DNA from: Chloroflexota bacterium | GTDB lineage: Bacteria > Chloroflexota > Dehalococcoidia > Lucifugimonadales > Australimonadaceae | Direction: 5' to 3' | Assembly: GCA_027625205.1 (NCBI GenBank) | Contig: JAQBVZ010000008.1 | Location: 1 to 11,282, forward strand | Length of the DNA stretch: 11,282 nucleotides | In this document: positions 3,347 through 6,738 of the stretch, in pieces | How the letters are laid out: each line of letters begins with the position of its first letter | How positions within the stretch are numbered: the stretch's first letter is position 1 | Notes under the pieces: model-generated | The model's input: only the letters and a program-made list of their open reading frames with translations | The model's database searches: none | What the model was told of the DNA's origin: nothing | Translations under genes and position numbers: made by a program

Positions 3347-4759
3347 CTACCTGTCCCGTGCTCCGGCGTCTTGACCACGATCACGCCCCTGCGGAACAGC
3401 CTTGGCATGCTGGCGGAAGTCCGGTGCAGTGATGGGCACCACGGTCACCAGGCGAGGGTCATTAATGCGAGAGGCAATAGGGTCCCGTGAGCTGTTGGGG
3501 AGCTTCCTGGTGGTGATAATGGTGGGAAGTCGAGCGTTGTGGCGGTGCACAATTATCTGGTAAAGCTTCTCATTGGCCCACTGCGTAGTGCTCTCCGCAC
3601 CCAAATCATCCAGGATAAGAAGAGGGGTCTGCTTGACCTCCTCAAACCGTTCGTCATAGGTCACACGGCTGTCAGGGCTGAAGGTATAGCGGAGGTAGTC
3701 CAGCAGGTCAGGAACCAGGGCAAAGAACACCGGTTGGCCCGCCTTGATCCTCTGTTCAGCTACCGCCACAGCCAGATGGGTCTTGCCGCAACCGGTGTCA
3801 CCCATAAGGACCAGCCAGCCGTCTGGTTCCTGCGCAAAGGACCGCGCTGACTGCAATGCGGCCGCCAGGGTCTCCTGGCCCTCCCGGTCCTTGGCTTTGC
3901 CGAGGGGCTCGAAAGTAGCGAAGGTCATGCGAGTCAACAATTCAGGCTCAATACCGCCAATGGCAGGCGCCCTACCCCTCGTTACGTCCCCCAGGTCCAG
4001 CAACTGAGACAGCCGTGGGTCACTGAGTCTGCTCTGGAGGCGAGCCTCTGTTTGCTCCACTGCGACGTTGGTGGTAATGACGGTGGATAATTGGGTCACG
4101 TAGCGGTGGTTCAGCAGTTGGAAGAGCTTCTCCTCAGCCCAGGGGGTGCTGCTCTGCACACCAAGGTCATCCAACACCAGCATGGGAATGCTCTTTATCT
4201 GTTCAAAGAGTTCGTCATACGGCATCTCGTTCTGCGGGCCAAAAGAGGCGCGCAGGTGGTCAAGCAGGTCCGGCGCCACCACGAAGAGCACAGGAATCTC
4301 CCGCTCCATGCAGCGGTTGGCGATTGCAGCCGCTAGGTGCGTCTTTCCCGTGCCGCTGCCCCCCTCCAACACCAGCCAGCCCTGAGGGTCCTCAGCGTAG
4401 GCCTGAGCGGCCTGCATGGACATCTTGAACCGGGTGCGACCATCCGTGTTGCCGCTGCGGCCATCAGCGTCGGTTTTCTCAAAGGACACTTCAGCGAGTC
4501 TCCCCATGTTGCTGAAGCGCTGAAGCCGGGTCAGGCGTCCGTCGCTGCTCACCTGCTGTTGGCAAAAGCACTGGACCGCTTTGCCAAAGTGAGGGTCGCC
4601 AATGGGTACTTCCCGCCGCACCCAACCAAGGCCGCCGCACAGCGGGCATAGGGGCTCAGCTGACTCCGGTTCGGCGGCCAACGCCTCAGCGGCGGAGTCC
4701 GTACCGTTTAACGTACTCAGCTGCTGTAATCGTTTGAGAATCGCTCCCAGGCTCTCCAT
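3347..4759 (-). CDS. DnaC/DnaI-like helicase loader with two tandem AAA+ ATPase modules
   Basis: A 470-residue protein of the DnaC/DnaI helicase-loader family, which uses ATP to place the DnaB ring on DNA. Residues 1-35 carry a helical MESLGAILKRLQQL. A putative zinc cluster follows at C38, C41, C64 and C66. AAA+ module 1 has Walker A GGSGTGKTH (K139), Walker B LVLDDLG (D197, D198), TTN at 229-231 and SRLSDPR at 243-249. Module 2 repeats all of this: GDTGCGKTH (K326), LILDDLG (D384, D385), TTR at 416-418 and SRINDPR at 430-436. By hand count the modules are about half identical over some 105 residues (about 4393-4013 and 3832-3452). Known DnaC and DnaI are 245-310 residues with one ATPase, so this is a duplication in one chain. 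The basic tail (last 20 residues) is not recognisable. I chose the ATG at 4759 over a GTG at 4765 because GGAG ends 5 nt before it. The gene overlaps dnaD by 74 nt. Confidence 0.88.
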   Translation of the reverse strand: MESLGAILKRLQQLSTLNGTDSAAEALAAEPESAEPLCPLCGGLGWVRREVPIGDPHFGKAVQCFCQQQVSSDGRLTRLQRFSNMGRLAEVSFEKTDADGRSGNTDGRTRFKMSMQAAQAYAEDPQGWLVLEGGSGTGKTHLAAAIANRCMEREIPVLFVVAPDLLDHLRASFGPQNEMPYDELFEQIKSIPMLVLDDLGVQSSTPWAEEKLFQLLNHRYVTQLSTVITTNVAVEQTEARLQSRLSDPRLSQLLDLGDVTRGRAPAIGGIEPELLTRMTFATFEPLGKAKDREGQETLAAALQSARSFAQEPDGWLVLMGDTGCGKTHLAVAVAEQRIKAGQPVFFALVPDLLDYLRYTFSPDSRVTYDERFEEVKQTPLLILDDLGAESTTQWANEKLYQIIVHRHNARLPTIITTRKLPNSSRDPIASRINDPRLVTVVPITAPDFRQHAKAVPQGRDRGQDAGARDR

Positions 4760-5369
4760 GGTCACTCCGGCCCTCTGCGGCCCAACGTTCTAGTATGCGG
4801 GCCACGTACTTCCAACTGCGTCGGTTGCGTTCCACCGCCTCCTTGAAGGCATCTTCTATCCATGATTCAGGATACACCCCCTCCGCGTCCTTGAGTTCAT
4901 CAGCCAACAGAGGTGTAAGCATGCCAATGTTCTGTTCATACAGCTTGAAGATGTTAGGGCGCTCCGCCGGCGGTACAACAGCCTGCTGCGTTCCCCTATC
5001 TTCAGTCGCGTCTTCAGTCGCGCTACCTCTTGCCTCAGCCACACGCTCATTGGCAGGCGTATGCGACAGGTAAGTCGTCTCTCCGCCGGGGCCTACGGTT
5101 GCCAGCAGAGTGCCTCGCTTCACCGCAAGCTCCAACCCCCGGCGTACCTCTTCCACAGAGCCAAGGGCCGCCAGCAGCACGGGGTCTTCCGTCAGCGCTG
5201 AGGCCCCCACCATACGGGGCTGGCCTTTCTGTTGCGCGACCATCCAGAAGAATCGCAGCGTGCACTTGAGCTCAGCCATCTCCGTGATCTCTTCCAGGAG
5301 CGGCCCGAGAAGTGGGCTGGGCACGGGGAGGTCCCGCGTGCCGGAGGGAAAGCCAGGAAAGGCCGCCAT
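4686..5369 (-). CDS. dnaD: DnaD-like primosomal protein
   Basis: A 227-residue DnaD/DnaB_2-family protein that in Firmicutes binds DNA and works with the loader at origins and restart sites. Residues 1-105 look like the winged-helix N-terminal domain (PVPSPLLGPLLEEI, then MAELKCTLRFFWMVAQQKG). Residues 106-137 form a polar linker with an ATEDATED repeat. The C-terminal domain runs from about 139 (IFKLYEQNIGMLTPLLADEL) to WKYVARILERW, which contains the YxxxIxxxW motif described for DnaD at Y188, I192 and W196. I placed the start at the ATG at 5369, one nucleotide after the TAG of dnaB. An in-frame extension up to 5651 exists but is the wrong-frame reading of dnaB and has no DnaD character. 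The C-terminal TAAEYVKRYGLRR overlaps the dnaC-like start by 74 nt. Sequence homology in DnaD families is low, so the symbol is by motif and neighbourhood. Confidence 0.85.
   Translation of the reverse strand: MAAFPGFPSGTRDLPVPSPLLGPLLEEITEMAELKCTLRFFWMVAQQKGQPRMVGASALTEDPVLLAALGSVEEVRRGLELAVKRGTLLATVGPGGETTYLSHTPANERVAEARGSATEDATEDRGTQQAVVPPAERPNIFKLYEQNIGMLTPLLADELKDAEGVYPESWIEDAFKEAVERNRRSWKYVARILERWAAEGRSDHGEPGSDSQTITAAEYVKRYGLRR
4765..4768 (-). promoter_or_regulatory. Ribosome binding site that fixes the dnaC-like start
   Basis: On the minus strand GGAG at 4768-4765 is followed by TGACC and then ATG at 4759. The competing GTG at 4765 overlaps the GGAG itself and so cannot be served by it. 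The site lies inside the coding sequence of the upstream dnaD gene. Confidence 0.65.
4999..5022. repeat. 12-nt tandem duplication inside the dnaD linker
   Basis: TCTTCAGTCGCG occurs twice in direct succession (4999-5010 and 5011-5022). Read on the minus strand it is in frame and encodes ATED twice, residues 117-124 of DnaD, in the region joining its two domains. It is probably a recent replication-slippage duplication. Confidence 0.85.
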
Positions 5370-5370
5370 G

Positions 5371-6738
5371 CTAATCCCATTGCTGCGCAGCCAGGCTCTC
5401 AAACCTGGAGAGGTTGCCACGGAAGTAGAGGTTGATGGTGTCCACCGGCCCGTGACGGTGCTTGGCCACGATGAATTCAACGATGTTGCGAGGGTACGGC
5501 TCAGTGGGGTACCGCTGTTCCCAGTCTTCCTCAGTGCGGTAGCGGTCCTCACGGTAGATGAAGGAGACCACGTCTGCGTCCTGCTCAATGCTGCCTGACT
5601 CACGTAGGTCTGAAAGTTGAGGACGGTGGTCAGGGCGCTGCTCCGGCGCACGGCTGAGCTGCGACACGGTGAGCACCGGTATATTCAAGTCTCTGGCCAT
5701 CCCCTTGAGTTGACGGGTGATTTCACCCAATTCCAACACGCGGTTCTCCATCCGGTCACTGGCTCCACGAATGAGCTGCAGATAGTCGACGACGACCAAG
5801 TCTAAACCGCGCTCCATGTGAAGCCTGCGAGACTTGCTGCGTATCTCCAGGACCGTCTGGAGCGGGGTGTCATCAATGTAGATGGACAGGTCAGACAGCG
5901 CGCCGACTGAGGCTCCGACACGGCTGGCTTCTGCGTCACTGACCAGACCAACCCGCAGCCGGTGGTTCTCCACTTCCGCCTCTGCCGAAAGGAGCCGCAA
6001 CGCAAGTTGCTCACGGCTCATCTCCAGGCTGAACACACCGACCACCGCCCCCTGGCCGGCAGCGTTGCGAGCGATGTTCATGGCAAGAGTCGACTTGCCA
6101 ATGGACGGCCTGGCCGCCAGGATAATCAGGTCTGAGCGCTGTAGCCCGCCCATAAGCAATTCATCCATTGCCGGAAAGTCCGTATGGATTGGCGCCATGC
6201 CGGTATCCATGCCTCCAATGATGGAGGCGGAGTCCTCTAGGTACTTGTCCAGAATTTCCCGAAGGGACGCGAAGTCCCGGACGCCCTGGCCGGTGCGAAT
6301 ACGGAAGAGCAGGTCTTCCGCCTGGGCCATGGCGGAGTCCACGTCCGCTGAGTTGTCGTAGCCAATAGTGGCAATCTCACCCGCAGTCTGGATGAGCCGC
6401 CGCATGGTGGCGGTGCGGCTCACGATGCGAGCGTAGTGTTCAATGTGAATGGACGTGGGAACTGTGGTGACAAGGTGGCTGAGATAGGCGGGGCCGCCCA
6501 ACTCTTCAAGACGCTCACGTCGGCCAAGCTCATGGCTGAGGGTCACCTGGTTGATGGCCTCATTGCGCTGATAGAGGGCCAGGCATGACTCATAACACCA
6601 GCGGTTGCGTTCGCGGTAGAAATCATCTGGCTTGACGATGGCGGCAACGCGGTTGATGGCCTCGCCGTCAATTAACAGCGAGCCAATAACCGACTCTTCT
6701 GCCTCTACGTCATGAGGTGGGAGCTTCTCAGCGTACAT
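5371..6738 (-). CDS. dnaB: Replicative DNA helicase DnaB
   Basis: A 455-residue DnaB, the hexameric ring helicase that unwinds DNA ahead of the replisome. The N-terminal domain opens with LPPHDVEAEESVIGSLLID (6-24). The RecA-like C-terminal domain has Walker A AARPSIGKST (208-217, K215), the FSLEMS motif with catalytic Glu239, Walker B VVVDYLQL (D318), TVSQLSR (357-363) and ESGSIEQDAD (380-389). The arginine-finger region reads KHRHGPVDT (426-434) where KxRNGPTG is usual: the Arg is kept, but Asn, Thr and Gly are replaced. No intein interrupts the gene. The ATG at 6738 has a weak AGGCGG just upstream. Length and end are normal. It leads the dnaB-dnaD-dnaC-like string, and rplI lies 95 nt upstream on the same strand, as in the rplI-dnaB order of many Gram-positives. 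Confidence 0.97.
   Translation of the reverse strand: MYAEKLPPHDVEAEESVIGSLLIDGEAINRVAAIVKPDDFYRERNRWCYESCLALYQRNEAINQVTLSHELGRRERLEELGGPAYLSHLVTTVPTSIHIEHYARIVSRTATMRRLIQTAGEIATIGYDNSADVDSAMAQAEDLLFRIRTGQGVRDFASLREILDKYLEDSASIIGGMDTGMAPIHTDFPAMDELLMGGLQRSDLIILAARPSIGKSTLAMNIARNAAGQGAVVGVFSLEMSREQLALRLLSAEAEVENHRLRVGLVSDAEASRVGASVGALSDLSIYIDDTPLQTVLEIRSKSRRLHMERGLDLVVVDYLQLIRGASDRMENRVLELGEITRQLKGMARDLNIPVLTVSQLSRAPEQRPDHRPQLSDLRESGSIEQDADVVSFIYREDRYRTEEDWEQRYPTEPYPRNIVEFIVAKHRHGPVDTINLYFRGNLSRFESLAAQQWD

Follow-up and report, generated by a model that had tools for sequence, protein, structure and literature searches.

Helicase loaders of the DnaC and DnaI type are the closest described systems to the protein considered here, and each of them has one AAA+ module per chain. 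DnaC of E. coli (6qel/6qem) is an initiator-clade AAA+ protein that binds the replicative helicase DnaB in a 6:6 ratio. DnaI of Bacillus (2w58, 4m4w) possesses a zinc-binding N-terminal domain and is described in PMC3791466 as a trimer of non-covalent dimers on DnaB, in which non-equivalent monomers contact the helicase differently. Single-module loaders of the same dna[CI] kind are encoded by Chloroflexota, and PMC5109545 reports the mutual exclusion of dna[CI] and dciA together with one dna[CI] domestication event in Chloroflexi. Two AAA+ modules in one chain have been obtained by engineering: linked dimers of Msp1, modelled on ClpX work cited there, form trimers of dimers according to PMC12793716. 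The present analysis concerns a gene on the first 11,282 nucleotides (nt) of contig JAQBVZ010000008.1 from a Chloroflexota bacterium (assembly GCA_027625205.1; class Dehalococcoidia, order Lucifugimonadales), referred to below as the window, whose product is a DnaC/DnaI-type loader with two AAA+ modules in a single natural chain.

Architecture of the loader

The loader gene occupies positions 3347..4759 on the minus strand, from an ATG at 4759-4757, with GGAG a short way upstream, to a stop codon at 3349-3347, and encodes 470 amino acids. The protein is composed of a single cysteine-rich N-terminal domain and two AAA+ modules, M1 and M2, all on the minus strand. M1 (residues 97-258; 3986..4471) contains the Walker A lysine K139, the Walker B pair D197/D198, a sensor-I residue N231, the arginine-coupler residue R244 and a predicted grip on single-stranded DNA (ssDNA) formed by R170, F173, T205 and W207, and is devoid of a conserved sensor-II arginine. 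M2 (residues 277-450; 3410..3931) contains K326, D384/D385, the arginine-coupler R431, the sensor-II R449 and the corresponding predicted grip R357/F360/T392/W394, with Arg418 replacing the sensor-I asparagine. The inter-module linker (residues 259-276; 3932..3985) is weakly conserved, and model confidence is lowest at residues 260-264. The N-terminal domain carries the cysteine cluster C38/C41/C64/C66 (residues 35-70; 4550..4657). A preliminary description of this DNA, made from its letters alone, had placed the gene at the same coordinates and named the same lysines, the DD pairs at 197-198 and 384-385, the motifs SRLSDPR (243-249) and SRINDPR (430-436) and the four cysteines; all of these were found as described. 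Its reading of a DnaC/DnaI-type protein with two AAA+ modules, adjoining dnaB and dnaD, is borne out by the Pfam and NCBIfam matches, the predicted structure and the gene order.

BLASTP aligns M1 and M2 over 157 ungapped residues at 43% identity (E 1e-51). A second alignment gave 69 of 163 residues identical, with a score of 386, the highest score among 500 shuffles being 50. The similarity counted by hand in the preliminary description, about half over some 105 residues, is therefore real, although the true alignment is longer and the identity slightly lower. Between M1 and M2, 58% of aligned residues and 46% of aligned bases are different. In 63 two-module chains, the modules of one chain share between 33% and 66% of their residues (median 48%). 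Compared with the window protein, mean identity amounts to 56% for M1, 63% for M2 and 30% for the linker, which measures 19-25 residues in most type-A loaders (defined below), with no obvious additional domain, and up to 56 residues in some loaders of type B.

Profile searches likewise matched the chain in two places. Pfam IstB_IS21 (PF01695) scored 124 bits over two separate stretches, and NCBIfam PRK08116 scored 226.8 bits against a cut-off of 189, again in two stretches. The equivalog models of the individual families remained below their cut-offs: 130 bits for DnaI (PRK08939; cut-off 228), 110 for DnaC (PRK07952; 357) and 151 for IstB (NF038214; 200). AlphaFold2 modelling of the chain alone, a check proposed in the preliminary description, returned two AAA+ folds with high local confidence; the mutual orientation of the modules was not fixed by it. 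The doubled architecture of the loader is thus confirmed.

The cysteine pattern CxxC-x22/23-CxC is present in 91 of the 93 loader frames examined. C38 and C41 are kept in all 71 aligned rows having a residue there (five rows have gaps), and C64 and C66 in all 76. The N-terminal domain is, to judge by this pattern, a probable zinc-binding and helicase-binding domain.

No description of a tandem DnaC/DnaI protein was found among the open-access papers listed by the searches, and the phrases 'tandem AAA+' and 'two AAA+ domains' did not occur in those papers; supplements, such as those of PMC5109545, where a tandem form might be recorded, lie outside this search. Within that scope, the earlier impression that no loader of this design had been described holds.

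Distribution of the tandem form

Among 59 genomes of the order, the source genome included, 52 have one match extending across both modules, four of them in genomes listed as a single contig (G012, G018, G020 and G047). The possibility that the two modules are separate genes or a misassembly, raised in the preliminary description, is ruled out by this shared architecture. In six of the remaining seven genomes the loader has a single module (G029, G032, G040), lies in two overlapping frames (G055), or is cut or unresolved (G007, G024); the seventh, G034, has a weak partial match and no loader. The locus in G055 (L186, 1916-3345) has one frame for each module, which reflects either a sequencing error or a real split.

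At class and phylum level a match threshold of E<=1e-15 was applied. A match was obtained in 135 of 148 class genomes: 124 have the tandem form, a few of these being cut at a contig end within M2, seven have a single module (G076, G089, G128, G142, G171, G181, G192) and four are cut or split between contigs (G086, G098, G170, G177; in G170 both pieces stop at contig ends). Thirteen have no match. In a phylum sample of 251 genomes with completeness of at least 80%, 154 match, 122 of them outside the class, and at least 34 of the latter are tandem (28 by listed range and six by module counting). The tandem form also occurs in records of Anaerolineae and Thermoflexia. The doubled loader is found throughout the class and reaches into other classes of the phylum. 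Of 7998 protein matches the best 120, where an organism is named, belong to Dehalococcoidia or Chloroflexota/Chloroflexi, the others being labelled DNA replication protein DnaC; a scan of genome contigs returned four loci, all from Chloroflexota.

The tandem form was not encountered in the phage, viral and plasmid records listed. Coverage of the query stays below 80% in every phage record, and the longest span among 25 records listed out of 711 is about 620 nt. Among the best 80 viral loci, taken from at least 369 relatives, 79 are single-module and one has two stretches inside a frame of 286 residues; none is tandem. Among eight plasmid records listed out of 667, a single record reaches 80% coverage, with one module over 729 nt, and none of the eight showed a tandem form.

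Several unusual loaders were noted among the relatives. A protein of 794 amino acids from one metagenomic source (P0035) has three AAA+ modules, the first two 86% identical, with a repeated C-terminal part and the Walker B sequence LDGLG, with glycine for the second aspartate, in all three; this three-module form may have arisen by a genuine additional duplication or may result from assembly. Module counts of one, two and three are all divisors of six. A very divergent tandem loader (L052, in G042) lies directly after dnaB and has an altered cysteine pattern, with no dnaD match found at the locus. One genome with a tandem loader also encodes a second, divergent single-module DnaC-like gene (L191, G117:C1:424265-424960), for which no dnaB or dnaD match was found within the 5.5 kb fetched.

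Gene neighbourhood and loader role

The loader gene follows dnaB and dnaD, in this order. The dnaB gene (5371..6738, minus strand) matches TIGR00665 with 488 bits against a cut-off of 385. The dnaD-like gene (4686..5279, minus strand) matches PF07261 and TIGR01446; its start at 5279 is a guess, the frame being open from 5651. The 3' end of dnaD overlaps the 5' end of the loader gene by 74 nt (4686-4759) in another frame. Such an overlap exists in 78 of 87 related loci, with a median of 80 nt over the 87, the loader starts having been assigned by rule, so that single values are rough. Same-strand DnaD homologues overlap 87 of the 93 loader frames or lie no more than 200 nt away from them, and a same-strand DnaB homologue is present at 83 of the 93 loci, some of which are short. 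In the phylum sample a loader was found in 154 genomes, DciA in 81, both in none and neither in 16. The fixed gene order, the exclusion of DciA and the published pattern of mutual exclusion (PMC5109545) together indicate that the window protein is very probably the resident replicative-helicase loader of dna[CI] type, expected to bind and load DnaB.

The single-module Chloroflexota loaders resemble it in gene order, N-terminal cysteine pattern and module family, and differ in having one module.

Active-site and DNA-contact residues

Residues of DnaC were mapped to M1 through a HMMER alignment to 6qel and carried over to M2 by aligning the two modules, with residue roles according to PMC8213410. 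Walker A, Walker B, the arginine coupler and the ssDNA-contact positions all align with those of DnaC. Counts were made for 43 tandem loaders of type A (diverged M1), 19 of type B (diverged M2), 20 single-module loaders from outside the class and nine from inside it. L035 (cut), L054 (M1 hit in two pieces) and L052 were left out. It is doubtful whether L061, L067 and L068 belong in type B, where they were counted; the M1 ends of L061 and L067 are A-like.

In type A the core residues are largely retained by both modules. The Walker A lysine is present in 42 of 43 M1 and 43 of 43 M2, the second Walker B aspartate in 36 of 43 M1 (six glycine, one glutamate) and in every M2, and the arginine coupler is arginine in 35 of 43 M1 (lysine in another seven) and in every M2. 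The tryptophan of the ssDNA grip is invariant in both (43/43 each). At the positions of the DnaC ssDNA contacts K143, F146, S177 and Y179, both modules nearly always have Arg, Phe/Tyr, Thr/Ser and Trp, respectively.

The sensors have diverged. The sensor-I asparagine of type A is found in nine of 43 M1 and four of 43 M2 (arginine in 25 M2), and the sensor-II arginine in no M1 and 42 M2; raw type-A sequences show M1 typically ending in 'LDLG' or similar, followed directly by the linker, and M2 typically ending in 'APDYR'. In type B the sensor-I asparagine occurs in 18 of 19 M1 and three of 19 M2, and the sensor-II arginine in 16 M1 and eight M2. Among single-module loaders the sensor-I asparagine is present in 20/20 from outside the class and 1/9 from inside it. 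In a 76-row tandem alignment residue 231 is asparagine in 29 rows and residue 418 is arginine in 47. In the window protein Asn231 of M1 aligns with the DnaC sensor-I residue Asn203 and no sensor II is seen, while M2 combines sensor-II R449 with Arg418 at sensor I.

The preliminary description had judged neither active site obviously dead. This stands for Walker A, Walker B, the arginine coupler and the predicted ssDNA grip, which are present in both modules; the full catalytic set is complete in neither, owing to Arg418 in M2 and the missing conserved sensor-II arginine in M1. Similarly, the motifs SRLSDPR and SRINDPR had been called arginine-finger-like. The motifs exist, but the arginine of 'DPR' lies one residue off the DnaC finger position and is not conserved, and it is the arginine of 'SR' (R244 and R431) that aligns with the DnaC arginine coupler R216.

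In E. coli DnaC, loss of the sensor-I or the sensor-II residue abolished ATPase activity; the sensor-II mutant nevertheless loaded DnaB as the wild type did, and loading suffered most in the sensor-I mutant (PMC8213410). Since neither module of the window loader keeps the full DnaC catalytic set, ATP hydrolysis is expected to be slower or restricted to certain interfaces. The sensor losses are read as divergence within the dna[CI] kind, as the single-module loaders of the class too mostly lack the sensor-I asparagine. That both modules are functional as a tandem appears almost certain.

Evolution of the modules

A first module tree was built from 97 modules hand-chosen from a larger set, and a second from the 65 modules left once 17 loci or proteins had been omitted for branches that were long or in odd places. 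The second tree contains a clade of A-type M1 (support 100/99) and one of B-type M2 (99/94). Approximately unbiased (AU) tests on the 65 modules did not reject joint M1 or joint M2 clades (p 0.28, 0.38, 0.35). A third set of 83 modules gave p 0.089 for a joint M1 clade and 0.030 for a joint M2 clade, with a viral row and the M1 of L033 inside the M2 group; once these two were removed, neither one duplication (p 0.49, 0.26) nor separate duplications (p 0.46, 0.48) were rejected. The comparison of both modules with single-module loaders, as proposed in the preliminary description, thus recovered the A-type M1 clade and placed the in-class single modules with M2, and left the number of duplications open. 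The AAA+ module was most likely duplicated inside the gene long ago, and types A and B may represent independent tandem duplications.

Of nine single-module loaders studied from inside the class, eight could be placed in the cleaned tree, and every one of these joins M2. In the module trees the in-class single modules are scattered among A-type M2, with five label changes in the tree made without L033 and the viral row. The outside-class ones are nearer to B-type M1. The several positions of the in-class loaders among A-type M2 indicate that M1 was lost several times and that M2 with the N-terminal domain can suffice; by this repeated loss, M2 looks like the core module.

A DnaB tree was used as a species proxy. 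It comprises 47 rows, restricted to loci with a long enough DnaB and without L035 (cut at a contig end), and, being unrooted, does not settle gain against loss. Its groups are type A with the in-class single-module loaders (100/96), type B (99/97), and the outside-class single-module loaders with L067 (95/93), with eight changes between tandem and single forms. L067 (in G330) has a tandem loader and a DnaB that groups with single-module genomes. Forcing it to join the other tandem rows, apart from the outside-class single-module loaders, was rejected (p 3e-5), and for this reason it may reflect transfer or a separate origin.

In three further loaders (L178, L179, L180) the second module is nearer to window M1 (52-54%) than to window M2 (43-45%); their within-chain identity of just 46-47% does not indicate recent gene conversion. 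On the viral contig IMGVR_UViG_3300035136_000050 a single-module loader (L098, 2881-3729) groups with type-B M2 (99/96) and adjoins a DnaB gene, which may reflect phage acquisition from a Chloroflexota host, or the reverse.

Proposed assembly on the helicase

The explanation preferred here is that of a resident loader in which each chain would be a natural covalent version of one dimer of the DnaI trimer of dimers. The single N-terminal cysteine domain would dock on DnaB, and both AAA+ modules would bind ATP and contact the ssDNA entering the helicase, as their conserved residues suggest. Three chains would then place M1 and M2 alternately at six positions beneath the DnaB hexamer, arranged as an open ring or a spiral, and would contribute three docking domains. 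M2 would act as the core and M1 as an added, less constrained neighbour stabilizing the assembly and the DNA grip, and M1 may determine which sites hydrolyse ATP. A three-chain ring is a reasonable inference given the trimer of dimers that DnaI forms on DnaB (PMC3791466), and the engineered Msp1 dimers also assemble as trimers of dimers (PMC12793716); those constructs are man-made from like subunits, whereas the window loader is naturally linked and its modules have diverged. Taken on its own, the ring of three chains stands at roughly even odds. For the explanation as a whole, comprising the resident loader, the covalent-dimer tandem, the three-chain ring and M2 as the core, we estimate a probability of about 0.6.

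Several points weigh against this explanation. AlphaFold2 gave no confident orientation of M1 relative to M2 (predicted template modelling scores, pTM, of 0.57 and 0.52), and a Foldseek search with the whole model placed Cdc48/VCP chains at the top by E-value (7e-10 to 3e-9; DnaC, 4e-9), though at template modelling (TM) scores of 0.22-0.25 and a root-mean-square deviation (rmsd) of about 18 A. The proteins that consist of a helicase-binding domain and M2 presumably work as six chains, so that a change of stoichiometry would have been tolerated several times; an assembly of six tandem chains would make the M1 losses simpler. Conservation of AAA+ residues need not mean that loading depends on the AAA+ modules, considering that the helicase-binding domain of DnaC alone loads DnaB at about half efficiency (PMC8213410). 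The N-terminal cysteine region, in a further difference from DnaI, matches no Pfam family, and its helicase-binding role rests on position and cysteine pattern. Finally, when the 13 class genomes lacking a loader match are taken together with G034, DciA is matched in G078 alone, weakly and over part of its length (25.3 bits, cut-off 24); G034, G119 and G197, of the same order or class, are 90-91% complete and have neither loader nor DciA at the thresholds used. The loader-or-DciA rule leaves such genomes unexplained unless contigs are missing.

Two-module AAA+ proteins commonly form stacked hexamers. By that precedent, six tandem chains could bind one DnaB hexamer and arrange their twelve AAA+ modules in two tiers as in p97, one tier gripping DNA and the other regulating. 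The Cdc48/VCP ranking points in this direction, the 6:6 binding of DnaC and DnaI given in PMC9912922 is consistent with it, and the deletion of M1, which leaves a helicase-binding domain with M2, would fit a modular tier. The alignments over both modules to two-module chains are however poor (rmsd 13.6-15.2 A, about 18 A by Foldseek), a weak objection given the uncertain orientation in the model, while good alignments are obtained for the modules taken singly (DnaC 3ec2, 1.9 A over 160 residues). The same ssDNA-contact residues in both modules fit one shared spiral at least equally well. Two tiers are accordingly regarded as rather unlikely, although they are the strongest of the alternatives.

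Somewhat less probable still is a division of labour between a loading module and a purely regulatory one, M1 (or M2 in the Anaerolineae-type tandem) degenerating into a sensor of nucleotide or a recruiter of DnaA or DnaD. The asymmetry of the sensors described above (sensor-I asparagine in B-type M1 vs B-type M2, sensor-II arginine in A-type M2 vs A-type M1), the replaced second Walker B aspartate in seven A-type M1 and the repeated M1 loss in type A speak for it. A pure regulator would, on the other hand, not need the Walker A and ssDNA-contact residues that are near-invariant in both modules, and most type-A linkers are short and without an obvious extra domain.

A transposition helper like IstB, or another mobile-element gene, is very improbable: the protein shares the Pfam domain PF01695 and its fold with IstB, and single-module relatives exist in phages and plasmids, but the IstB equivalog score is below cut-off, the dnaD/dnaB context is fixed and different from that of IstB, loader and DciA never co-occur (0/251), none of the best 80 viral loci is tandem and no phage record reaches 80% coverage of the query. 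An assembly or annotation artefact, suggested by a source metagenome-assembled genome that is 60% complete and in 250 contigs, has a negligible chance and is already refuted by the relatives sharing the architecture and by the divergence of the modules.

Extended beyond the window, the covalent-dimer reading would state that most Dehalococcoidia and many other Chloroflexota use such a loader, three chains making a six-position ring of alternating non-equivalent modules, and that the number of modules per chain (one, two, or three in P0035) changed repeatedly around a constant ring, with types A and B possibly independent duplications. This generalization is put forward tentatively, with somewhat less than even confidence.

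Biological significance

In a homohexamer it is difficult to work out how DnaC or DnaI subunits divide ATP binding, ATP hydrolysis and the holding of DNA among themselves around a helicase of six-fold symmetry. With two modules naturally fixed in one chain and open to mutation one at a time, individual positions could be tested without engineered linkers, and the same family offers natural forms with one, two and possibly three modules for comparison. The results suggest that loader architecture was apparently rebuilt inside the phylum after the domestication of a phage gene, with repeated returns to one module.
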